Shown here one piece after another: positions 1,430 to 31,388 of a stretch of 39,149 bases of DNA (positions are counted from its first letter, which is position 1; each line of letters begins with the position of its first letter). Under the pieces are notes generated by a model. The model searched no databases. It had not been told where the DNA came from and saw only the letters and a program-made list of their open reading frames with translations. The position numbers and the translations under genes are program-made. The DNA is from a virus, in the IMG/VR virus record IMGVR_UViG_3300005340_000027, positions 1 through 39,149 of that record. One strand, 5' to 3'.

Positions 1430-1786
1430 CTAGTACCAAGGATCTGATTCGTCATTTCCGAACGATGGCTGTGTCCAAGTCTGTTGCTGCTTCGGAGCAG
1501 GAGGCTGCAACGGATTTTGCTTTACGTACTCATCGAAGGCTTTAAAGAACTCTATTTCAAACTTCTTCTGCATGTCTCTATCTTCGTACCCGCACTTTCT
1601 GGCATATTTCTTTACCCCATCTTTCTCGTAAGGATCTGAAGGGAAAGCAATCCATCTATTGCCTTGCTTATCAAAGACTGTAATATCTTTAATAAAGAAT
1701 CCACCCCACTTAGGTAATGTTATTGTTACTGACGCTACCATAATGCCTTTTAAAATAGGTCTTACATTAGTTATCTGCATCTTCAT
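1430..1786 (-). CDS. SpoVG-like nucleic-acid-binding protein, possible phage SSB
   Basis: This 118-residue protein starts with a SpoVG-like fold pattern: ITNVRP, then a strand VASVTITL, then FFIKDITVFD...RWIAFPSDPY (residues 4-53). SpoVG proteins bind DNA or RNA. Residues 90-112 are Gln/Pro-rich, and the protein ends in an acidic aromatic tip, NDESDPWY. That recalls the acidic tails of single-stranded DNA binding proteins, which recruit partners. Lying between primase-helicase and RusA, it may be the phage's ssDNA-binding protein; this is inference. The start overlaps the helicase end by 20 bases. The second Met, six bases in, has better spacing from AGGAG and may be the true start. Confidence 0.55.
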   Translation of the reverse strand: MKMQITNVRPILKGIMVASVTITLPKWGGFFIKDITVFDKQGNRWIAFPSDPYEKDGVKKYARKCGYEDRDMQKKFEIEFFKAFDEYVKQNPLQPPAPKQQQTWTQPSFGNDESDPWY

Positions 1787-3263
1787 ATCTCCTATACGTT
1801 CTTTCTGTTGGTGATAAATAAAATTGATTTGGTTCAGAGTATGAGTCTGTTACAGAGCTGTAATAAAGTGTTACAGTTGATTGATTACCTAGAAGTCTGT
1901 TTTTAACAACACTTAGATTTACCTGGTTTATCTTCATAGGGTCTAGGGTATCCATACGAGTTAGCAATAAGATGTTATCTGCATATTGTTTGATTGCTGA
2001 GCTACCCTTTAAGTCATTGATACTTAATGGTCTAGGAGGTCCTTGTATCTGCCTAGGATGAGCAACTAGGATAATACCTACATTGAACTCCATAGCTAGA
2101 GAGTGTAGCTCTCTAACAGTTTCGTCTATATTCTCCAGAGCGGACTTGTTCTGGCCTAGAGAGTGAATATAGTCCAAGTGGTCTAGGATTATATATTCTA
2201 TATTAAAAGCTAGAGCTGCTATTTCAAAGTCTTTCCTGATCTCTTGGATAGAGCTGCCAGTATTCTTTGGGTTTACATAGACATTGTGCTGTAAAGACCA
2301 TTGATAAAAAGACTGTCTTTCTGAGTCTTCAAACTTTCTAACTCTGATGTTTTTAGCTAGTATCATAGAGGCTAGCTTGCGATAGATAACCTTGCAGTCC
2401 ATTTCAAAGCTGTTGATCCAGATAGCTTTATTCTTAGAGGCTAGGTTAGCTGCTAGATTTAAGCAGAAGGTGGTCTTCCCGCAGCCAGTTTCAGCAGAGA
2501 TAACAGTCACCTCACCTTTCCTCACTCCGCCTAGGATCTTATCTAGCCCTTTCCAGCCTGTAGACACTCCGAAGTCTATCTCTTCAAAGAGAGAGGGATC
2601 GGCATCCGACATGTGCTCTAACCGCTCACATTTTGGCCTAACAGCAGAAAATAGCAGGTTAGCCAGGTCTTCAGGTCTTGCAGCTGTATCTATCAGCCAG
2701 TGATTAGCGTCTTTAGGCTCTGTCTCACCTGCTGGGAAAATGATCCTTCGGTACTTGTTGACGGGAAGCATTTTCATAGCTTTAGAGGCTGCAATATTGC
2801 CAGGCTCGTCCATGTCGAAAGCTATATAAACCCTGTCAAACTTTTGCAGGAATCTGTAGTTATTTTTGAAGGTAGCCTCTACAGAGGACGCACCATTAGG
2901 GAGTGATACGCAATTTGTAGCCCCTAGCTGGCATAGAGCTAAGCAGTCGAACTCGCCTTCAGTGATGATTAGGTACTTGGTGTCGTACGGCTCCACTTGG
3001 TTGAAGAAAGGAGCCTTCCAGTCGTCTTTTTCCTTCTCAGGCAGTGAGGTCCAGAATTGCTTTTTCTTGTCGGTTATAGATCTAGCTTTCCATCGAACAA
3101 TCTCGCCATCGATTGAATAGGGAAACCAGACCATTCCGTCAATGGCCGAAATACGTAGTTTGCGGGCCTCTGACGCGTCTAACCATCTTTGGTCGAGGTA
3201 AGATAGCCCTTCGGCATCAAAAGCTCCAGGAAGGGGCTTATTTTGCGTTTTTGAGATATTCAT
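1767..3263 (-). CDS. Primase-helicase: TOPRIM domain fused to DnaB/RecA-type helicase
   Basis: This 498-residue replicative enzyme has the T7 gp4/Twinkle arrangement. Residues 95-155 form a TOPRIM domain (EGEFDCL at 102-108; FDMDEPG at 149-155). Residues 235-470 form a RecA-like helicase with Walker A ETGCGKTT (258-265), Walker B YIILDH (357-362, Asp361) and a motif-H3-like AHPRQ (401-405). The N-terminal zinc-binding module of full primases is not visible, so priming activity is uncertain and the protein may act mainly as helicase. AAAGG lies seven bases before the ATG. It follows the initiator gene, making a compact replication unit. Confidence 0.92.
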   Translation of the reverse strand: MNISKTQNKPLPGAFDAEGLSYLDQRWLDASEARKLRISAIDGMVWFPYSIDGEIVRWKARSITDKKKQFWTSLPEKEKDDWKAPFFNQVEPYDTKYLIITEGEFDCLALCQLGATNCVSLPNGASSVEATFKNNYRFLQKFDRVYIAFDMDEPGNIAASKAMKMLPVNKYRRIIFPAGETEPKDANHWLIDTAARPEDLANLLFSAVRPKCERLEHMSDADPSLFEEIDFGVSTGWKGLDKILGGVRKGEVTVISAETGCGKTTFCLNLAANLASKNKAIWINSFEMDCKVIYRKLASMILAKNIRVRKFEDSERQSFYQWSLQHNVYVNPKNTGSSIQEIRKDFEIAALAFNIEYIILDHLDYIHSLGQNKSALENIDETVRELHSLAMEFNVGIILVAHPRQIQGPPRPLSINDLKGSSAIKQYADNILLLTRMDTLDPMKINQVNLSVVKNRLLGNQSTVTLYYSSVTDSYSEPNQFYLSPTERTYRRYEDADN

Positions 3264-3286: not shown

Positions 3287-4093
3287 TTATTGGTCTCTTT
3301 CGATTTTTGCCACAAGTGCACTGTCTACCTGCTCATCAGACATCATCGGAAAGAATGGGATGATAGGGGTAGCAGAAGAGCCGTAAGGCGACCTAGCTGC
3401 TTTGGATCTGTGATCTTCCCAGGCGTCCAGCAGCCAGCCACCTTTACGGAAATAGCTGTAGCAGCTAGCGCCTTTGGCGCGCTTGGTTGTTGGCTTGGCT
3501 AGGTAGTAGTCTAGCTTATCTAGCATCCATTCAAGCTGCTGAGCTGGAATCGAAGCTTGGAGCTTGGCAAACTCTTCAACCTTCATAGTCACTAGCTCCC
3601 TTAACGAAATTTGCGTGGGTGCAGGAGCGGCAGCGACACTCTCTCTCTTCTTCTTCTTCTTGTCTTCTTCTTCTTCTTTATTGTGGTCGGTTGCTGGTCG
3701 GTTGCTGGTCGGTTGTTGGACTTTTTGCTGGTCGGTCTTTTCTGAAAAAGCTTCTGTCAGTATCTTGTAGACGGTAAACTTGCTGGTCGACTTGCTGGTC
3801 GCTTTTTCGATGATTTTAGCTTCTAGCATCCAAAACAGCCGGCTTCGCACCTCCCTTTCCCCTAGGCCAGTCTGCTCAGCACACTTAGCTCTACCAAAGA
3901 TAAACTCATATGGCCCAAGCTCTATTTCTTTATGGTCGTGATAAACTTTTCTAGTCTCAGAACTGCAACGGTTGAATATCCATAGCAATAAGATAGCCAT
4001 CTTCATATGGGAGCCATCTGGCTTGGGGTCTAACCATCCATGTTTCTGGAAATAGTGAGGGAATGTAGAGAATGTGAATTCGACTTTAGACAT
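3287..4093 (-). CDS. Replication initiator with winged-helix domain (lambda O-like)
   Basis: This 268-residue protein starts at MSKVEFTF because GAGG lies six bases before that ATG; a longer in-frame extension lacks a good site. Residues 10-105 look like a winged helix (HMKMAILLLWIFNRCS; GLGEREVRSRLFWMLEAKIIEK). Residues 115-165 are Gln, Lys and Glu-rich low complexity, followed by a helical C-terminal region with aromatic clusters. It resembles phage initiators that bind the origin and load the helicase, and it sits directly upstream of the primase-helicase. The low-complexity stretch is encoded by iteron-like DNA repeats, as the lambda O gene holds its own origin. No specific family was assigned. 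Confidence 0.65.
   Translation of the reverse strand: MSKVEFTFSTFPHYFQKHGWLDPKPDGSHMKMAILLLWIFNRCSSETRKVYHDHKEIELGPYEFIFGRAKCAEQTGLGEREVRSRLFWMLEAKIIEKATSKSTSKFTVYKILTEAFSEKTDQQKVQQPTSNRPATDHNKEEEEDKKKKKRESVAAAPAPTQISLRELVTMKVEEFAKLQASIPAQQLEWMLDKLDYYLAKPTTKRAKGASCYSYFRKGGWLLDAWEDHRSKAARSPYGSSATPIIPFFPMMSDEQVDSALVAKIERDQ
3639..3801. other. Candidate replication origin: iterons plus polypyrimidine tract
   Basis: Five exact copies of TTGCTGGTCG (plus strand) start at 3691, 3702, 3725, 3780 and 3792, with a degenerate copy at 3681. The start-to-start distances are 11, 23, 55 and 12, all near multiples of a helical turn. Next to them lies a TTC/CT-rich tract at 3639-3680. The copies fall in all three reading frames of the host gene, so the DNA word, not the protein, is conserved. 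Lambda O has the same layout of iterons beside an asymmetric tract. The origin role is inference. Confidence 0.55.
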
Positions 4094-4208
4094 GTAGTAC
4101 CTCGTTGTTTTTACGAGAGGCACCATGGAAAAGTGATTGCAGACATAATAGCTGTAAGCTATAATGAGGGCACAACAACGTACACTTTCCACAGTGCAAC
4201 TCTAAAAT

Positions 4209-4231
4209 AGCCCGAGCGTCTAACTCGGGCT
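4209..4231 (-). terminator. Hairpin terminator between two minus-strand genes
   Basis: AGCCCGAG (4209-4216) and CTCGGGCT (4224-4231) form an 8-bp stem with a 7-base loop. On the minus strand it is followed by ATTTTAG, a weak U-run. On the plus strand it is followed by GTTTGCTTTT. It could act weakly in both directions. It lies just after the stop of the 4255-4584 gene and before the initiator gene. Confidence 0.6.
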
Positions 4232-4254
4232 GTTTGCTTTTAAAGCTATCACTT

Positions 4255-4584
4255 TCAATATTCTTTGGCAAATGGAACATGGCCGCCCTCCACGCAAAAC
4301 ATAAGGCGGGCATCTTGCACAGGCATGCCCACATCTTCCGCCTTATACACATATCTAGGCTTTAGGTAGATGTAGTCATTGGTCTCATGAGACACAATAG
4401 ACCCTCTAAGCTCCAGATACTCTAGGCAGTTGCTGAATCTAGTATCCTGCGAGACACCTTGCATAGGGAAAGGCTTGCAGCCTTTGGCAGCGTATATCTC
4501 GCATAGAGTAAAGAAAGTGGCGCAGATCCGTTCATGCCAGCTATCTAATATAGGCACGCACTTAGCGCAGAAGCAGATAATCAT
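4255..4584 (-). CDS. Hypothetical protein, Cys-rich N-terminus
   Basis: This 109-residue protein was not recognised. The N-terminus holds several cysteines (C5, C9, C21, C28, C36). The C-terminal half resembles a small helix-strand unit (CLEYLELRGSIV ... DYIYLKPRYV) that could be a winged-helix remnant. Its ATG overlaps the stop of the upstream gene by four bases (ATGA), so it is probably co-translated with it. It ends just before a hairpin terminator and so closes the unit that begins near the regulator. Confidence 0.6.
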   Translation of the reverse strand: MIICFCAKCVPILDSWHERICATFFTLCEIYAAKGCKPFPMQGVSQDTRFSNCLEYLELRGSIVSHETNDYIYLKPRYVYKAEDVGMPVQDARLMFCVEGGHVPFAKEY

Positions 4585-4862
4585 CTAAGCGTAAGCTCCT
4601 CTTCATCCCAGCCCACTAGCTCTATGACATACTTGTCTATGATAAATACGTAGCTGAGTAGCATAGAGGACGATAGCAGGATTAGATCGTGCTTAAACTT
4701 GGCCCTAGAGGTTAGAAATAGGTCGTTGATATCTGCATAGGGAGCATAGACCTTGCAGTCTTGGTCCATCTGCTCCCACAGCTGTAGATAGGTATCTAAC
4801 GCCTTGGGGCATTGCTTCGCTATGATCTTAAGGTAGGCTTGGGGGGGTGTTTGAATGGGCAT
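4581..4862 (-). CDS. Hypothetical helical protein, first gene after the operator-like repeat
   Basis: This 93-residue protein of unknown function is mostly helical (AYLKIIAKQCPKALDTYLQLWEQMD; FKHDLILLSSSMLLSYVFIIDKYVIE). The pattern resembles small phage DNA-binding or anti-repressor-type proteins, but no family is recognised. A strong AGGAGAGG lies one base before the ATG. A near-perfect inverted repeat lies just upstream, suggesting repressor control. The C-terminus overlaps the next gene by four bases. Confidence 0.6.
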   Translation of the reverse strand: MPIQTPPQAYLKIIAKQCPKALDTYLQLWEQMDQDCKVYAPYADINDLFLTSRAKFKHDLILLSSSMLLSYVFIIDKYVIELVGWDEEELTLR

Positions 4863-5828: not shown

Positions 5829-6140
5829 ATGTTATACACAGACGAAATGATTATCAAAGCCCATTATCAAGACTTTATAGCTAGGGAGACGTATGCACGG
5901 TACAAAGAAATTGTGAAAGAATCCTTTAGTGTAGTCGGCCAGGACTTAGCTGCGGATTTTTTAAAGCTGCTGAGTGCCGCACATTCGTTAGATATGCCAG
6001 AGGCTGACATATTTATCAAGAAATTGAAGCTATCAGACAAAGACTTCTGCTGTATCGATGACGATCAAAAGAAGTACATGGACCTTATAGAAGAAGAAAG
6101 ACTCGCTTACTATTCTGGGTGGGATTATGTCGAAGCCTAA
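5829..6140 (+). CDS. Hypothetical early protein
   Basis: This 103-residue acidic, mostly helical protein was not recognised. AGGAG lies five bases before the ATG. It ends in YYSGWDYVEA and overlaps the exonuclease gene by 14 bases, which implies co-translation with it. An accessory role to the exonuclease or annealase is possible from context alone. Confidence 0.6.
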   Translation: MLYTDEMIIKAHYQDFIARETYARYKEIVKESFSVVGQDLAADFLKLLSAAHSLDMPEADIFIKKLKLSDKDFCCIDDDQKKYMDLIEEERLAYYSGWDYVEA

Positions 6141-6690
6141 AGAAGGTTATACAAGGGTGACGACAGTGTTGTCGCCCTTTTCAGGTCTAGGCCAGGTGCC
6201 AGCTGATATCTTACAAAGAGCTGCTGATAGGGGAACTGCTGTACACGTTCTCTGCGACGCTTACATCCAGGGCTTGGGTATCCCAGCCGCTGCCTCTAAC
6301 ATCCAGGGCTATTACAGCTCTTTTGAGAAATGGGCTGAGGGAAAGACCTTCTACCCTACACCTGGTAGGTTTTATGATGATGATAGAATGCTTACGGGTG
6401 AGTGTGATTGCGTCATAGAGACCGAAGGGGGCTGTGTCTTGGTGGACTTTAAGACCTCTGCCAAAGAGGGAAAGACCTGGCCTTTACAGGGCTGCGCCTA
6501 TGTTGAACTGGCCCGTAAAGAGGGCTGGAATTTGATCGGTATCCATTTTGTGAAGCTGCAAAAGGATGGGTCAGAGCCTGAAGTCTTTATTTACGATTAT
6601 AATAAACACTTACCTATGTGGAGTATGTGTTTTGAAGTATATAAAGAGTTTTTCGCAAAGAATGAATTTAATTTTGAGGATTTAATATGA
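6127..6690 (+). CDS. PD-(D/E)XK exonuclease (recombination)
   Basis: This 187-residue nuclease shows the motifs of the RecB/Cas4/lambda-exonuclease-like PD-(D/E)XK fold. These are RGTAVH (residues 35-40), an acidic residue after GE (GECD, 91-94), VDFKTS (106-111, catalytic D107 and K109) and QGCAY (121-125), matching the Q-x3-Y motif. Such enzymes resect DNA ends to make single strands for the partner annealase. The next gene is a Redbeta-type annealase that overlaps it by four bases (ATGA), so the pair is a SynExo-type recombination system. Confidence 0.85.
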   Translation: MSKPKEGYTRVTTVLSPFSGLGQVPADILQRAADRGTAVHVLCDAYIQGLGIPAAASNIQGYYSSFEKWAEGKTFYPTPGRFYDDDRMLTGECDCVIETEGGCVLVDFKTSAKEGKTWPLQGCAYVELARKEGWNLIGIHFVKLQKDGSEPEVFIYDYNKHLPMWSMCFEVYKEFFAKNEFNFEDLI

Positions 6691-7505
6691 CTGCTTTAGT
6701 TGAACAAAAAAGCTCTCAAGCGTTACCTTATAGCCCAGATCAAATAGAGCTGATAAAAAATCAGATCTGTAAAGGGGCTTCCGACGTGGAATTACAGCTA
6801 TTTTTACATGTGTGCCATAAGACTGGCTTAGACCCTCTGGTAAAGCAAGTCTACTCCGTCAAGTACGGTACCGATAGATCTATCATCGTCGGTATAGATG
6901 GTTTTAGATCGGTCGCTGAGCGCTCTGGCTGCTATGCCCCAGGTAAAGAGTCCACCTTCTCTTATGATGCGCAAGGTAGGCTTAAGTCTGCGACTGCTTA
7001 CGTCAAGAAGATGACTAGGGATGGTACCTGGCATGAGGTTAGTGCCTCTGCCTTCTGGGCTGAGTACGGATCTGATAAGCAATTCTGGAAGAAAATGCCT
7101 CATGTCATGCTATCTAAATGTGCGGAGGCGATAGCCCTTAGAAAAGCTTTCCCGAATGAGCTATCTGGGCTGTATACTCAAGATGAGATGGACCAAGCTA
7201 ACAGAAAGTCTGCCCCTGAAGAGGTCCTGGCTGTAGAAGCTGCTGACGTGGTAGTACACGCAGTAGAAATAGAACATTCAGACGAAGAAGTTGAAAAACT
7301 CCTTAGCAAGTTGGTAAGGAGCGACTTCCCCAAGGAAGATTATGATCTTATGCAGGAGTATATTTTGAAATACGCTACCCATCATAAGAAATCTATGTGG
7401 CAGGCGTACGTAGATTATCAAGATAATATAGACAAGCTGAGAGGGGATTTCTCTCGCTGGAAGGCTAAACATAATAAAATGGCTGAGGTGTCACATGGAA
7501 AATAA
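6687..7505 (+). CDS. bet: Single-strand annealing protein, Redbeta/RecT-like
   Basis: This 272-residue protein matches the Redbeta (Bet) family. It has GLDPLVKQVYSVKYG (residues 48-62), the signature IVGIDGFRSVAERSG (67-81), a strand-rich core with WHEVSASAFWAEYG, and MLSKCAEAIALRKAFP (141-156). Residues 190-272 are an acidic-to-basic helical tail that probably contacts partners. These proteins coat single strands and anneal them during recombination and concatemer formation. It is coupled to the exonuclease upstream. Family assignment rests on these motifs. Confidence 0.9.
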   Translation: MTALVEQKSSQALPYSPDQIELIKNQICKGASDVELQLFLHVCHKTGLDPLVKQVYSVKYGTDRSIIVGIDGFRSVAERSGCYAPGKESTFSYDAQGRLKSATAYVKKMTRDGTWHEVSASAFWAEYGSDKQFWKKMPHVMLSKCAEAIALRKAFPNELSGLYTQDEMDQANRKSAPEEVLAVEAADVVVHAVEIEHSDEEVEKLLSKLVRSDFPKEDYDLMQEYILKYATHHKKSMWQAYVDYQDNIDKLRGDFSRWKAKHNKMAEVSHGK

Positions 7506-9505: not shown

Positions 9506-10201
9506 CTAAATTTGATGCATTAATGTCAGGTAATACGCCGTCTGCGCAGGAGCTGCTATAGCGAAGGAAGCGGCTGCCCCTGTAGTTGGATTTTGCTGAA
9601 AGATAATAGCTGTGAGGGTGTTGGACACTCCCTGCGCCCACGTTACAGTAGATCCAGCTGTTAGCGCTGCCCCATTAACGATAGTTGTCCCTACAGGATT
9701 GTAAGAGGTCTGATTTTTTATCGTGAAAGGGAATCCCCCAAAAGTTGCTTGGCCTGTTCCAGTTACGGAGTTAACCAAGACATAAGCTGATAGGTAGCAT
9801 AAGTTCCCTACTCGGGTATAGTAGCCCTGCTGGTCGGCATAAGTCGTTGTCCCTGCTGTACTTCCCCCTACCATCGTACCCGTGAAAGTTCCGAAGGCGT
9901 AGGCATTTAACAGGTGGCTACCTGCGTTAAAAGATATAGCAGTAAAATAGGTAGTGGAAGTCGTAGAAAAAGCTGGGGCAGATCCTGTGGTACCTGCAAG
10001 GATAGAGTTGTTTGTGCCAGCTGTAAGCATCGTTATGGCAGTCGTTCCATTGCCAACTAACACCCCGTTAGTCGTTAAAGTGGCTCTGCCTGTTCCACCA
10101 TTAGAAACAGTTAAAGGGTTAGCTAGGGCTGTGAAAGATCCTGCGCCGTTATAGGTGACGATCCCTGAGGCTGTGATATTTAAAGCATTATTAGCGGCCA
10201 T
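9506..10201 (-). CDS. Tail-fibre-like protein with GGTG shaft motif
   Basis: This 231-residue low-charge protein is rich in Thr, Ala and Gly. Residues 28-55 contain NGGTGRATLTTNGVLVGNGTTA, the repeated GGTG...NGVLVGNG motif common in phage tail-fibre shafts. The C-terminal half (residues 105-231) is strand-rich with aromatic residues and may form a carbohydrate-binding cap. It lies between other fibre genes. A role in host adsorption is likely but the ligand is unknown. Confidence 0.7.
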   Translation of the reverse strand: MAANNALNITASGIVTYNGAGSFTALANPLTVSNGGTGRATLTTNGVLVGNGTTAITMLTAGTNNSILAGTTGSAPAFSTTSTTYFTAISFNAGSHLLNAYAFGTFTGTMVGGSTAGTTTYADQQGYYTRVGNLCYLSAYVLVNSVTGTGQATFGGFPFTIKNQTSYNPVGTTIVNGAALTAGSTVTWAQGVSNTLTAIIFQQNPTTGAAASFAIAAPAQTAYYLTLMHQI

Positions 10202-27415: not shown

Positions 27416-27629
27416 TGCTGCGCTCTAGTTTATCTATCTCTCTCTGTATGTTCCAGATCGCTTTTAACAAGTCCTGAACAGCATCATCTTTGCTACCTGC
27501 TCTCATGATGTAAGCCAGGGCATTGCCCTTATAAAAGCCCAAGTCGTAGGCATCTATAATCTCATAGACCTTTATGCCTGCTCGGCAGTAATAGTCAGGG
27601 TGTATCGGGTCAGGTACATACTCGGTCAT
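27405..27629 (-). CDS. DUF3310 family protein (T7 gp1.7-like nucleotide kinase family)
   Basis: This 74-residue protein matches DUF3310: HPDYYCRAGIKVYEIIDAYDL (residues 10-30, given in part), GNALAYIMRAG (36-46) and DLLKAIWNIQREIDKL (53-68). The T7 member, gp1.7, has nucleotide kinase activity acting on dTMP and dGMP. It is at the small end of the family. It is coupled by ATGA overlap to the metallophosphoesterase gene. Confidence 0.85.
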   Translation of the reverse strand: MTEYVPDPIHPDYYCRAGIKVYEIIDAYDLGFYKGNALAYIMRAGSKDDAVQDLLKAIWNIQREIDKLERSNEK

Positions 27630-28306
27630 AGCTCTATCATCCTCGGCTCGTGTACTGGGTCGTAGTTCTCATCCATTATCGCTGCATTGACAAACTTGCA
27701 GAGCGAACTTTCAAACATACAGCCCCCCATTTCGTGGATATGCCCGAACACATGCAACTTAAGCTTAGGCATTCTGCGACGGCTAAGGATGAGCGATCTT
27801 AACTCGTTGCTGCCTACCCTTCCCTTGCTGCACTCGTCCAGTATCCCAAAAGGGGGGGTATGTGTTATCAAAATATCTGTATCCCTGGGAATTTTGCAAT
27901 ATTTATTAGCAAGATCCTGCTCACTGCCTGTAAAAGCCTTGCACTTAGGATTTATGCCATGAAACCACAAAGACCAAGGTGAACCCCATATCTTGAAACC
28001 ACCGAATTCGCAGCCTGAATCGCATAGATAGTCAAAATCTTGGGGGCCTTCGCCTACCATTTCTCTTATCTCTGCGCAGGTGTCGGCCTCTTCTTTGGTC
28101 TGTGGCCACCCCTTCGAAATAAAGACATCATGATTGCCAGCAATCAGCACTTTCTTTTCATAGTCCTGTTTCTTAAGCCATCTAAAAAAGTCGGCGTACT
28201 CATGGATCTTATCAAAAGGCGTCAGATCTCCCCCTATGATTAGAAGGTCTCCCCCCTTAAGCTTAGGATAAAACCCGTGCAGATCGCTAATACAATCAAT
28301 AATCAT
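27626..28306 (-). CDS. Calcineurin-like metallophosphoesterase
   Basis: This 226-residue enzyme carries the full set of metallophosphoesterase motifs: D8-x-H10 (SDLHG), GGDLT with D27, GNHD (57-60), TH at 148-149 before TPPFG, and GHIH (188-191). Such enzymes hydrolyse phosphomonoesters or phosphodiesters, including cyclic nucleotides and RNA ends, using two metals. It is encoded in one unit with RtcB and the tRNA genes, so a role in processing RNA ends is possible but not shown. Substrate unknown. Confidence 0.88.
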   Translation of the reverse strand: MIIDCISDLHGFYPKLKGGDLLIIGGDLTPFDKIHEYADFFRWLKKQDYEKKVLIAGNHDVFISKGWPQTKEEADTCAEIREMVGEGPQDFDYLCDSGCEFGGFKIWGSPWSLWFHGINPKCKAFTGSEQDLANKYCKIPRDTDILITHTPPFGILDECSKGRVGSNELRSLILSRRRMPKLKLHVFGHIHEMGGCMFESSLCKFVNAAIMDENYDPVHEPRMIEL

Positions 28307-28311
28307 TTAAT

Positions 28312-29109
28312 CTACTTTTGTCTAGGTGATTCAAGCCTGTTCTTAGCGTTTTTGTTGTAAACCTCTAAAATCCTGTTGAATATTTCATCTGTTCTACGGA
28401 ATTTAAGAATATTTAAAACTACGTCCAAGTTGTCCTCTAACTTCTTGAACATACGCTCTCGGTCATAACCTTCTAATCTTATAAGGTGATAAAAGGCATG
28501 GTACATTTCTATGTTTACTTTCTTCACTAACTTGAACTTCAATAGATAATTTACAATTTCCTCTAGTTGAAGCATTACGCTAAATATTTCTTCTTTAGGT
28601 AATTTTAATCTTAACTCCCCATTCTTAAAGTCTAACGAACTGCTAACGTTACCCTTTGACATATGAAATAACTTGATAAACACGTCATAAGCTACTTTGA
28701 ACTCCTCGCAAATTTGCAGGCATAAACCATAGTTTCTGCGCTGCTCTACAGGAAACTCTTTACACTCACAGCTAGAGTAAAAGTAAGCGTAATCCCTTGC
28801 TACCCAGTTACTTGCAGTCACGTTATGCGCTATTAAATCTGCTGGGTGGAAGTTTTCATCGATCACATAATAGAGAGGCTGCTGCGTTGCTTGGGCATAG
28901 CTCCATCGATGCTGGCCGTCGATTATTTCCATGTCCTTATTGACGATGATAGGATGCACATATAGCTTGTTAGATCTAGCTAAGCTTTTAGACATTTTAG
29001 CCAAGTGATTAATAGGCCTGTTATAATCCAAAATTTTGAACTGGTCATAATCCGTCGTTACTTGAATAATTGGGGGCTTCTTAGGTTGAAATTGTTGTGT
29101 CGGCTCCAT
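28312..29109 (-). CDS. ParB/Srx-like domain protein
   Basis: This 261-residue protein has an N-terminal ParB/sulfiredoxin-like domain with VHPIIVNKDMEIIDGQHRWSY (51-71, shown in pieces), where DGQHRW (64-69) is the nucleotide-binding or catalytic box. Residues 100-261 are helical with a possible HTH (VAYDVFIKLFHMSKGNVSSSL). Related domains act as DNA-binding partition factors, CTPases or nucleases. Start at MEPTQQ: AAAGGAAAG precedes that ATG. The gene lies next to RtcB, but a functional link is only inferred. Confidence 0.75.
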   Translation of the reverse strand: MEPTQQFQPKKPPIIQVTTDYDQFKILDYNRPINHLAKMSKSLARSNKLYVHPIIVNKDMEIIDGQHRWSYAQATQQPLYYVIDENFHPADLIAHNVTASNWVARDYAYFYSSCECKEFPVEQRRNYGLCLQICEEFKVAYDVFIKLFHMSKGNVSSSLDFKNGELRLKLPKEEIFSVMLQLEEIVNYLLKFKLVKKVNIEMYHAFYHLIRLEGYDRERMFKKLEDNLDVVLNILKFRRTDEIFNRILEVYNKNAKNRLESPRQK

Positions 29110-29128
29110 GACTTTCCTTTGGGTATTG

Positions 29129-30325
29129 TTAATCTTTATAGGGGTCAAAATCCCTTTCATCGGCCATCGCGACCCCAATAGGGGTCAAGGTATGTAAAAT
29201 CTTCACTGTCTCGCTATGAGCCTGTAAAACGTCTCCTATGCGTTTATATGCGTAAGGACTCTCGTCTAGTCCTCCGCCTCGCAACTCAACATTTGCTCCC
29301 CGCATCCAAGCATCATGAGCTTCACGCTTAACGAGTCCCTCGGTAAGTTGCTTTCCTGTTCTTCGACAGGTTTTTCCCTTGGCTTGTACTCTTCCCATTG
29401 CACGTCCCGCGCCATGCACCGTAGAATAGAGTGACGCGCTCTGTAGCCCATGTCCGTTCCCTTCCTCTCCTCCCACCCCTTCCAGGATAACTGAAATATC
29501 TCCCATAGAACCTCCAACAAAGCCTCTTTGCCTCGGGAAAGCAGGGGTAGCTCCTTTTCTAACGACCCAAAGAGCTTTACCAAAATGGTTTTCTCTCCAT
29601 GCAAAGTTATGGTGATTATGAACTTCGTCAAGTATGTTTCCTCGCAAGATGGCAGAAACGCGGCTACATACCCAATCTCTCCCTGCGTAAGCGTATCTTC
29701 CAGCAAGTTCCATGCATTTAATATATTGCTGTCCAAGGTCTGAATCTTCACTAAATATGACTGGCTTCGCATGAATCCCATCTTTACCCCCCCCTGCTTT
29801 TATGAAATGCGTCGCAATACTGTGTCCAAGACCGCGCGACCCAAAATGTACCCCAATCCAAACCCGCTGTTGTTCGTCAACAAACAGATCGACATAATGA
29901 TTGCCAGAGCCCACAGTTCCAAGTTGTGAAATTGCCTTATCTCTGAGAGACGACAGCAGTGGGATCTCATTCCAAACAGGATCAGAAAAAAGCTCATGCT
30001 CAACTTCTTCATTATTCCACCTTCCCACACCAAAGCTTATATGCTTCTGGATCTCGTTCATAGTTCTATAGATGTTACCTTTAAGTTCCTCAGCAGGACA
30101 GTCCACCAGCACAGCTTTATTACCGCAACCGATATCAAAACCAACTCCGTTGACACAGATCTGCCGTTCATAAGCAATAACACCTCCAACAGGAACAGAA
30201 TACCCAATGTGATGGTCGGCCATAAGGGCACCGTAAACTGCGTCATACTTCATCGCCTCCTTCATCTGGGCTACTGCTTCGGGCAGAGGATCTCCCCAAA
30301 CTGGGATGCCATCGATTATTTGCAT
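29129..30325 (-). CDS. rtcB: RtcB RNA ligase
   Basis: This 398-residue protein is full length (E. coli RtcB 408) and keeps the active-site motifs: GVGFDIGCG (60-68, D64 and C67), SGNHY (140-144), VHFGSRGLGH (159-168, H160), NHHNF (237-241) and VHGAGR (303-308, where H304 is the expected guanylated His). RtcB joins RNA 3'-phosphate or 2',3'-cyclic phosphate ends to 5'-OH ends using GTP and Mn, as in tRNA splicing and repair. It is one gene away from a nine-tRNA array on the same strand. Confidence 0.95.
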   Translation of the reverse strand: MQIIDGIPVWGDPLPEAVAQMKEAMKYDAVYGALMADHHIGYSVPVGGVIAYERQICVNGVGFDIGCGNKAVLVDCPAEELKGNIYRTMNEIQKHISFGVGRWNNEEVEHELFSDPVWNEIPLLSSLRDKAISQLGTVGSGNHYVDLFVDEQQRVWIGVHFGSRGLGHSIATHFIKAGGGKDGIHAKPVIFSEDSDLGQQYIKCMELAGRYAYAGRDWVCSRVSAILRGNILDEVHNHHNFAWRENHFGKALWVVRKGATPAFPRQRGFVGGSMGDISVILEGVGGEEGNGHGLQSASLYSTVHGAGRAMGRVQAKGKTCRRTGKQLTEGLVKREAHDAWMRGANVELRGGGLDESPYAYKRIGDVLQAHSETVKILHTLTPIGVAMADERDFDPYKD

Positions 30326-30326
30326 A

Positions 30327-30539
30327 TCAGTTACTCATTGCGTAATTAATCCAATTCTGTCTTTCAGTTTTTATTTCTAACATTCTGATTGCTATTCTAT
30401 AACAAGATTCACAAACTAGCTTAGCTGAATTAATATCCTCTTTAGGGTGCCACTTTTTAAACCTTTTGATTACCTTATCATCAGCAGTAGTCTTCAGGTA
30501 TTCTTTATGGCACTGGGCACATGTAAAAGTTACATTCAT
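30327..30539 (-). CDS. Hypothetical zinc-ribbon protein
   Basis: This 70-residue protein has CAQC (residues 7-10) and CESC (43-46), a probable zinc ribbon, with a basic linker (KVIKRFKKWHPKE) and a C-terminal amphipathic helix. It lies between the tRNA array and RtcB, with one base between its stop and the RtcB start. It could bind RNA, but function is unknown. Confidence 0.6.
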   Translation of the reverse strand: MNVTFTCAQCHKEYLKTTADDKVIKRFKKWHPKEDINSAKLVCESCYRIAIRMLEIKTERQNWINYAMSN

Positions 30540-30573
30540 TATCCCCCCTATTTACCTATAAGCTACTACCACA

Positions 30574-30645
30574 TGACCCCAACTGGACTCGAACCAGTGC
30601 CTCCAGAGCGAAAGTCTGACGTGCTAACCGCTACACTATAGGGCC
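30574..30645 (-). tRNA. tRNA-Glu (anticodon TTC)
   Basis: This 72-base gene folds with a 7-bp acceptor (two G-U pairs), a 4-bp D-stem, the anticodon stem TCAGA/TCTGG with loop CTTTCGC, and a T-arm containing GGTTCGAGTCC. The anticodon TTC reads GAA and GAG. Discriminator base A; no CCA is encoded, so the tail must be added. Confidence 0.92.
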
Positions 30646-30652
30646 TAACATG

Positions 30653-30725
30653 CGCCAAGTGAGGGAGTCGAACCCACAACAAAGGTTTTGGAGACCTTTC
30701 GCGCACCCCTTGCATCTTACTTGAC
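30653..30725 (-). tRNA. tRNA-Trp (anticodon CCA)
   Basis: Acceptor GTCAAGT/ACTTGGC, anticodon stem AAGGT/ACCTT around CTCCAAA, T-loop TTCGACT, and discriminator G73, the usual Trp identity base. The D-arm is degenerate (only about three pairs, TGC/GCG) and the T-stem has a U-U mismatch. The 3' end reads GCA rather than GCCA. Confidence 0.8.
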
Positions 30726-30727
30726 AT

Positions 30728-30798
30728 CGGGCTATAGCAGAGTTGAACTGCCGCCTTGAGCGTGACAAGCTCATATGCTACCGATACATCAATAACCC
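30728..30798 (-). tRNA. tRNA-Asp (anticodon GTC)
   Basis: Acceptor GGGTTAT/ATAGCCC, D-stem ATGT/GCAT, anticodon stem TGAGC/GCTCA with loop TTGTCAC, T-stem GGCAG/CTGCT, and discriminator G73 as expected for Asp. It is 71 bases long with no encoded CCA. It is separated by two bases from the tRNA-Trp gene. Confidence 0.9.
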
Positions 30799-30800
30799 AT

Positions 30801-30873
30801 AGCTGCGTGTAGGAATCGAACCCACGACATCCTCAGTACAAAAGAGGTGCTCTACCAACTGAGCTAACGCAGC
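30801..30873 (-). tRNA. tRNA-Thr (anticodon TGT)
   Basis: Acceptor GCTGCGT/ACGCAGC, D-stem GCTC/GAGC, loop TTTGTAC and T-stem GTGGG/CCTAC. The anticodon stem CCTCT/TGAGG has a U-U mismatch at its base next to the loop. Anticodon TGT reads ACA. The discriminator is T where bacterial Thr tRNAs usually have A. Confidence 0.88.
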
Positions 30874-30968
30874 AAACAGGAGACCGCTAAGTCTCCCCAA
30901 AAATTACGCCTCTGGCCGAAATAGGTAAGTTGCGATCTTTCCCAGGTCCAGTCGCATATAACTTTTAA
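30874..30968 (-). other. Structured spacer in the tRNA array
   Basis: This 95-base gap holds no tRNA that I can fold. It contains the hairpin GGAGAC/GTCTCC (30879-30884, 30891-30896), a dyad TGCGA/TCGCA around 26 bases (30930-30955), and a small GCC/GGC hairpin. It may be a processing hairpin, a decayed tRNA or a small RNA. Confidence 0.3.
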
Positions 30969-31042
30969 TTGTGCTGCTTGGACTTGAACCAAGGACTTCC
31001 ACCTTATAAGAGTGGCGCTCTCACCTTCTGAGCTACAGCACA
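30969..31042 (-). tRNA. tRNA-Ile (anticodon TAT)
   Basis: Acceptor TGTGCTG/CAGCACA, D-stem GCTC/GAGC, anticodon stem CCACT/GGTGG with loop CTTATAA, and T-arm CTTGG TTCAAGT CCAAG. The literal anticodon TAT decodes AUA, in contrast to the CAT-anticodon (lysidine) tRNA that most bacteria use. Discriminator A. Confidence 0.88.
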
Positions 31043-31046
31043 TCAT

Positions 31047-31118
31047 TGACCCCAATAGGACTTGCACCTATACAATCCAACTTAAAAGGTTGGTGCTCTA
31101 CTATTAAGCTATAGAGTC
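31047..31118 (-). tRNA. tRNA-Lys (anticodon TTT)
   Basis: Acceptor GACTCTA/TGGGGTC with wobble pairs, D-stem GCTT/GAGC, anticodon stem CCAAC/GTTGG with loop CTTTTAA, and T-loop GTGCAAGTCC. The T-loop begins with GTGC instead of TTC, an unusual T-loop. Anticodon TTT reads AAA and AAG. Confidence 0.88.
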
Positions 31119-31120
31119 TT

Positions 31121-31193
31121 AGGACTTGGTAGGACTCGAACCTACGACCATTGGCTTAACAGACCAAAGCTCTAACCACTGAGCTACAAGTCC
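31121..31193 (-). tRNA. tRNA-Asn (anticodon GTT)
   Basis: Acceptor GGACTTG/CAAGTCC, D-stem GCTC/GAGC, anticodon stem TTGGT/GCCAA with loop CTGTTAA, and T-stem GTAGG/CCTAC with TTCGAGT loop. This is the most canonical fold of the array. It is 73 bases long, with no encoded CCA. Confidence 0.93.
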
Positions 31194-31195
31194 AT

Positions 31196-31266
31196 TAGCG
31201 GAAGCTGGAGTCGAACCAACAGCTCTGGCTTATGAAACCAGCGAGTTACCGTTACTCTATACCGCG
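31196..31266 (-). tRNA. tRNA-Met (CAT), initiator-like
   Basis: This 71-base gene has C1 facing T72 (unpaired), the D-stem GAGT/ACTC giving an A11-U24 pair, the anticodon stem CTGGT/GCCAG with loop TTCATAA, and T-stem GTTGG/CCAGC. The open 1:72 end and A11-U24 are hallmarks of bacterial initiator tRNA. The anticodon stem has two G-C pairs and one G-U pair in place of three. T8 is kept, which fixes C1 as the first base. An elongator or Ile-lysidine role is less likely. Confidence 0.85.
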
Positions 31267-31316
31267 TTAAAGTGGAAGCTCTTCCCTTCCTTGGGTGCGT
31301 TATTTCAGCTCCGTGT

Positions 31317-31388
31317 TTGGCGATGATGGAGTCGAACCACCCACTTTCTGCATATCAGGCAGAATTTCTACCGCTGAATTAATCGCCA
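31317..31388 (-). tRNA. tRNA-Ile (anticodon GAT)
   Basis: Acceptor TGGCGAT/ATCGCCA, D-stem with three pairs (TTC/GAA plus an A-A mismatch), anticodon stem TCTGC/GCAGA with loop CTGATAT, and T-stem GGTGG/CCATC. Anticodon GAT reads ATC and ATT. It is first of the array in the direction of transcription, seven bases after the 31395 gene. A 50-base gap with no clear element lies between it and the next tRNA. Confidence 0.88.

Follow-up and report, generated by a model that had tools for sequence, protein, structure and literature searches.

A phage genome recovered as an IMG/VR virus record (39,149 bases, analysed over its whole length and here called the window; head, portal and tail genes are present) carries, inside the gene of its putative replication initiator, a series of short direct repeats. 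The question raised by this locus is whether these repeats act as DNA, as the replication origin of the phage, or only serve the protein in which they are encoded. The array is very probably a self-contained, lambda-like origin, and we assign a probability of about 0.86 to the prediction that the phage replicates from this array within the gene of its own initiator, by a mechanism that we infer as a whole. Beneath this prediction lie the repeats themselves, selection at the DNA level, a conserved architecture, the location of some copies in the wing of the DNA-binding domain, an adjoining tract and homology to O-type initiators, all of which were observed.

The initiator gene and its repeat array

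The initiator gene P0001 (3287 to 4093, minus strand) encodes 268 residues comprising an N-terminal winged helix, a disordered linker and a helical C-terminal region. The AlphaFold model (43 sequences) placed the winged helix (wHTH) at residues 28-111 with pLDDT mostly above 88, helices at 68-75 and 79-91, strands at 95-97 and 107-111, a wing loop at about 98-106 and a poorly ordered linker at about 112-163. Profile searches indicated that P0001 matches PHROG 2514 (5.1e-8) and the O-like PHROG 345 (4.3e-4), as well as PHROG 270 and 8102, and PHROG 345 was also matched by 12 of 25 homolog domains; both the profile match and the N-terminal winged helix that characterize O-type initiators (PHROG 345, PHROG 2514) are present. 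PHROG 2514 is labelled as a DnaD-like helicase loader, a label to be read beside the fact that P0001 matched no Pfam family and that its C-terminal helices are modelled at low confidence. Foldseek searches with the predicted winged helix returned nothing at E <0.001 and only generic winged helices, and the structural matches to the predicted fold include the initiator N-domains 4pql and 4pt7 (Z 7.2 and 6.8). The model and the O-type PHROG matches thus uphold the view, put forward in the initial annotation, that the repeats lie in the gene of a winged-helix initiator. Directly downstream is a primase-helicase gene with Toprim and DnaB_C domains (1767 to 3263, minus strand; DnaB_C 2.6e-31, Toprim_2 1e-10, PHROG 239 2.6e-90), whose product is likely the helicase recruited by the initiator.

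Exact search of the window confirmed five copies of the 10-base word TTGCTGGTCG on the plus strand, CGACCAGCAA on the coding minus strand, at positions 3691, 3702, 3725, 3780 and 3792, with spacings of 11, 23, 55 and 12 bp as first described. Neither form occurs exactly anywhere else in the 39,149 nt on either strand, and allowing one mismatch added one site for TTGCTGGTCG, at 9827. Following the direction of the gene, all on the minus strand, copy 1 (3792-3801) encodes wing residues 98-101, ATSK, and copy 2 (3780-3789) shares its frame at a distance of 12 bp and specifies STSK, wing residues 102-105. A gap of 55 bp, which is also present in relatives, separates copy 2 from copy 3 (3725-3734; linker residues 120-123, TDQQ), and the 23-bp interval that follows is occupied by a degenerate iteron, GTCCAACAA (3713-3721), with one mismatch to GACCANCAA. 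Copy 4 (3702-3711) encodes linker residues 128-131, PTSN, copy 5 (3691-3700) encodes residues 132-135, RPAT, and the array ends in a partial iteron, GACCACAA (3681-3688, start approximate), of the type that usually forms the junction to the AT/purine tract in relatives using the same word. The five copies use all three codon frames, again as originally noted.

Synonymous-codon shuffling of the initiator gene yielded at most three copies of CGACCAGCAA in all 20,000 trials. That figure is post hoc, since the word was chosen after being seen, and some 10-mer, of whatever sequence, reached at least five copies in 608 of the 20,000 shuffles, likely owing to runs of K and E codons. The decisive evidence is therefore the recurrence of the array in related phages. 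Scanning the window with Rfam identified tRNAs and no other element, and the cumulative GC skew of the window, which is uninformative here, had no origin-like minimum at the repeat site.

Recurrence of the array in related genes

A DNA-only pattern of three GACCANCAA words at 11-bp pitch was searched in 2.9 million viral contigs and matched 50 stretches, 49 of which (L010 being the exception, and L005 covering the tail of the L016 gene) carry it within a gene of the winged-helix initiator family and at the same place, directly after the last winged-helix strand, in frames 0, 2 and 1. A scrambled word of equal composition matched a single viral stretch. The reversed word was rejected as a control because it fits variant arrays of the same initiator family, and the scrambled word was used instead. 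Conservation of the word in relatives despite changes of frame, which the initial annotation had proposed to look for, is thus present.

The same pattern gave 21 matches in bacterial genomes, seven in genes of the initiator family, one in another phage replication-like gene (L068) and two in gene-free sequence followed by an AT-rich tract; the rest, at least 11 of the 21, resemble tandem repeats of no relation to the family or belong to other contexts, and in bacterial genomes the pattern is therefore not diagnostic by itself. A search for related loci found none with P0001 and three with a single domain. In 229 genomes of a single class, which were reached by way of an Acinetobacter locus, the winged-helix profile had no match, and the initiator family occurs in phages or genomes of several bacterial phyla. 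Among annotated relatives, those whose wing codons contain or adjoin a copy of the word include Lactobacillus phage Lc-Nu, phage vB_LmoS_P7, Dulem virus 39, Cellulophaga phage phi18:3 and Vibrio phage 1.133.O.

The two gene-free matches are arrays of GACCAACAAAC in a Ruminococcus and a Clostridia MAG (approximately L061:3628-3796 and L064:6187-6340), outside initiator genes and followed by an AT-rich tract; each MAG also has an initiator family gene elsewhere (L094 and L097). Decay of a prophage origin, a second origin or a decoy role could each explain these arrays. The idea that they mark satellites dependent in trans on a prophage initiator was considered and found unsupported, the flanking genes looking chromosomal and the exact pattern being found in 1 of 391 related genomes, only the starting one.

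A word shared by the wing and the linker

Homologs were also collected from bacterial genomes with a profile (A1) restricted to the winged helix, which is blind to the linker word, and for each of the 43 non-redundant genes of this set the linker DNA was searched for the best 9-mer of that gene's wing DNA. The wing 9-mer was found there in 104 copies, compared with 39.3 (sd 4.5, max 46) in 30 synonymous shuffles, and 28 genes had at least two linker copies, compared with 7.6 after shuffling. The frames of the linker copies relative to the wing were distributed 33/37/27, as expected if the reading frame is irrelevant, and the agreement between a wing and its own linker was reached by random pairings in 0 of 20,000 permutations. 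Words vary between phages (GACCAACAA, GAGCAACAA, ACTTGGAAC, ATCAACCAA, TGAAACGAA, AAGGGCCCA and others), and where the word has changed, wing and linker are altered together: the GAGCAACAA type has SSNK in the wing and NEQQ...SNK in the linker, and the GGAAC type has ELGT in the wing and TELGTELGT in the linker.

Mapping of the linker word onto the domain revealed copies only at profile (HMM) positions 81-92, the predicted wing, with three peaks four codons apart, at KSTNE, ITIK and TTNK. The fraction of genes with a copy, per position, was 0.24 at positions 83-92 versus 0.011 at positions 1-82, and 0.034 after shuffling. The window itself conforms, two of its five copies encoding residues 98-105 of the predicted wing loop. 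It is an unexpected result that in many related phages too some copies of the word lie in codons of the loop that should grip DNA. No description of iterons in wing codons was found in the accessible parts of the open-licence literature; intragenic iteron origins as a kind are already known, and what is new is that copies lie in wing codons and that the word changes there and in the linker jointly.

These data bear on the possibility that the repeats have no function as DNA, being no more than codons of a low-complexity Q/T/N/P linker or products of slippage. The linker is disordered in the AlphaFold model and slippage easily makes tandem 11-bp units, but neither accounts for the use of all frames, for an excess that synonymous shuffling abolishes, for the same word in structured wing codons at quantised distances, or for its recurrence in one gene family across divergent phages, and we regard this explanation as very improbable. 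The claim that selection acts on the DNA and not on the peptide is accordingly sustained by the frames, by the shuffles and by the recurrence of the array in the same gene family in the DNA-only search, which was blind to the gene.

Spacing follows the fold. Neighbouring copies in the linker are 11 bp (231 cases) or 12 bp (64 cases) apart, whereas in the wing, the folded part, 15 of 20 spacings are 12 or 24 bp; the pitch is mostly 12 bp there, presumably since the protein has to stay in frame, and 11 bp where the linker is disordered. Distances from wing to array are mostly 55, 66-68, 78-79 and 88 bp, in steps of about 11 bp, or about one helical turn. A preferred pitch of about 11 bp, stretched to 12 bp where the fold forbids a change of frame, would account for both.

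Similarity of the recognition helix was compared with similarity of the word, the rest of the domain being removed, and gave a partial correlation of 0.30 (0 of 2000 permutations), a modest value given that 0.26 was reached by one of the control blocks taken from the domain. The same correlation was 0.34 for the wing, 0.105 for helix 2 and -0.21 to 0.26 for the control blocks. Comparison of sequences therefore suggests that the winged helix reads the word. That another protein, a host factor or a helicase loader, binds the word while the winged helix does something else would be compatible with the array of L068, which sits in a differently built phage replication-like gene. The word, however, varies between phages, and its variation goes with that of the recognition helix and wing encoded by the same gene; a host factor common to all would leave this unexplained, and binding by another protein is the least probable of the alternatives, barely credible in our estimation.

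If the winged helix is taken as the reader of the word, the origin word could also help to encode the very wing by which it is read. We advance this self-reading tentatively, as a possibility with the odds against it. If true, a mutation in a wing iteron would alter protein and site at once, coupling the evolution of specificity, and phages could split into many mutually blind origin and initiator types. The family also offers a natural system for joint change of a DNA-binding domain and its site, with dozens of word variants and their cognate domains.

In the Desulfobacterium MAG that contains L068, the open frame at 3581-4646 on the reverse strand of that locus contains eight GACCAGCAA words at 11-12 bp pitch, which suggests that the same word is used by another type of initiator.

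The predicted origin and its known counterparts

Beyond the array the coding strand continues as a purine tract (AATAAAGAAGAAGAAGAAGACAAGAAG..., 3640-3680, minus strand), which is the pyrimidine tract reported beside the repeats, present on the plus strand at 3640-3675. Over the 50 nt that follow the array, purines make up 90% and AT 62%, so that the tract is GA-rich rather than strongly AT-rich. In the 49 GACCANCAA arrays, AT content over the 20-60 bases beyond the last copy exceeds that of the gene (46 of 49 positive over 50 nt) and purine on the coding strand rises to 0.83 at +20 to +40, and GACCACAAACAAGAATG is a frequent junction between array and tract. The lambda iterons likewise have an AT-rich tract beside them (PMC7466680), and by analogy the tract found here may be a DNA unwinding element. 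An intragenic iteron origin of an O-type phage initiator is expected to contain several copies of one word in the initiator gene under DNA-level selection, next to an AT-rich or strand-asymmetric tract, and both features are present here.

In the proposed mechanism the winged helix of P0001 (residues about 28-111) would bind the CGACCAGCAA iterons, two of which belong to the wing codons, in frame at a spacing of 12 bp, and the others, three exact and one or two degenerate, to the linker at about 11-bp pitch. This pitch would let successive protomers line up along the same face of the DNA helix, and the resulting complex would strain the adjoining purine/AT-rich tract at 3640-3680 and presumably melt it. 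The primase-helicase encoded next door would then be recruited and loaded at the strained tract, and the origin would fire.

Comparison with known systems revealed closer precedents than lambda. By tblastn the protein of a relative, L004, finds lambdoid O proteins, and P0001 itself gave no direct match to HK022-type O. The HK620 and Sf6 records annotate rep_origin within O, and the sequence so annotated consists of 11-bp repeats read in several frames (TACCAGCA; TTGTCCAAC). The HK022/HK620/Sf6 type of O resembles P0001 in being an O-like winged-helix initiator with out-of-frame 11-bp iterons in mid-gene and a helicase-type replication gene next to it; in HK022 and HK620, unlike here, the word differs and has no copy in the wing. 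For phage L, the proposed origin consists of six imprecise repeats of 11 bp (TGTCCAACGGA) within its initiator gene, gene 18 (PMC8022706). The likeness lies in 11-bp repeats within an initiator gene and in an origin that is predicted only, as ours is; the word differs, and no wing copies are reported. HK022-type O and phage L gene 18 are the closest known systems, nearer than lambda.

These comparisons qualify the initial likening to lambda O, of which the self-contained design stands but not the choice of lambda as nearest model. Lambda ori proper has iterons of about 20 bp, with binding of O footprinted, whereas the window has a word of 10 bp at 11-12 bp pitch, within the 10-11 bp of such words here, so the word is indeed different from and shorter than that of lambda. 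Wing copies, and a primase-helicase gene next door in place of P, are further differences.

Two other groups show parts of the same arrangement. In pSK41 Rep, of the RepA_N type, the winged-helix N-domain is described as binding Rep boxes that lie centrally in its own gene and encode a linker (PMC5703833). RepA_N initiators are thus alike in having binding boxes in mid-gene, and 4pql and 4pt7 are N-domain structures of this group, but their repeats come after the domain, at 23-bp pitch where it is clear, and the defining Pfam domain (PF06970) was matched neither by P0001 nor by any of the 25 homolog domains of its family. RepA_N genes in genomes related to the Ruminococcus MAG had arrays at 23-bp pitch, with no clear wing copies among those read. 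The product of SPP1 gene 38 binds direct repeats of oriL in its own gene, with an AT-rich unwinding element alongside (PMC6316719). SPP1 shares the repeats within the initiator gene and the AT-rich element, but differs in using two origins and in loading its helicase through a separate protein, gp39, and is likened by architecture, not sequence.

The same evidence weighs on the idea that the repeats are initiator sites for autoregulation, copy control or incompatibility and that the origin is elsewhere. Iterons are often regulatory as well and two wing copies stand apart from the main array, but the purine/AT tract after the array is conserved, arrays coincide with the annotated origins of HK620 and Sf6, and promoter-like sites in the region are no more numerous than chance would give; this idea is improbable, less so than the other two. 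The origin first suggested for this gene is therefore retained as a prediction, supported by recurrence, codon frames, the HK620 and Sf6 rep_origin annotations, the AT/purine tract and the wHTH fold. For the many phages whose origin is unmapped, this gives a rule applicable to sequence data: where a word is common to wing and linker codons, in different frames, in an O-like initiator gene, it predicts both the origin and its specificity word.

Other features of the window were observed near the replication genes and further away. Upstream of the initiator gene, at 4205-4235, lies a 12-bp inverted repeat, AAATAGCCCGAG / CTCGGGCTGTTT, possibly a transcription attenuator. Directly after the primase-helicase gene, 1433-1786 on the minus strand encodes a small protein with a weak match to SpoVG (5e-4, below the Pfam cut-off), and 6127-7502 on the plus strand, opposite to the replication genes, holds genes for an exonuclease (PHROG 298) and a RecT-type annealing protein. 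In the region 27629-31388, nine tRNA genes (30574-31388) adjoin the gene of an RtcB-type RNA ligase (29132-30325), with a metallophosphoesterase further on (27629-28306), and together these form a possible tRNA repair set against host anticodon nucleases.
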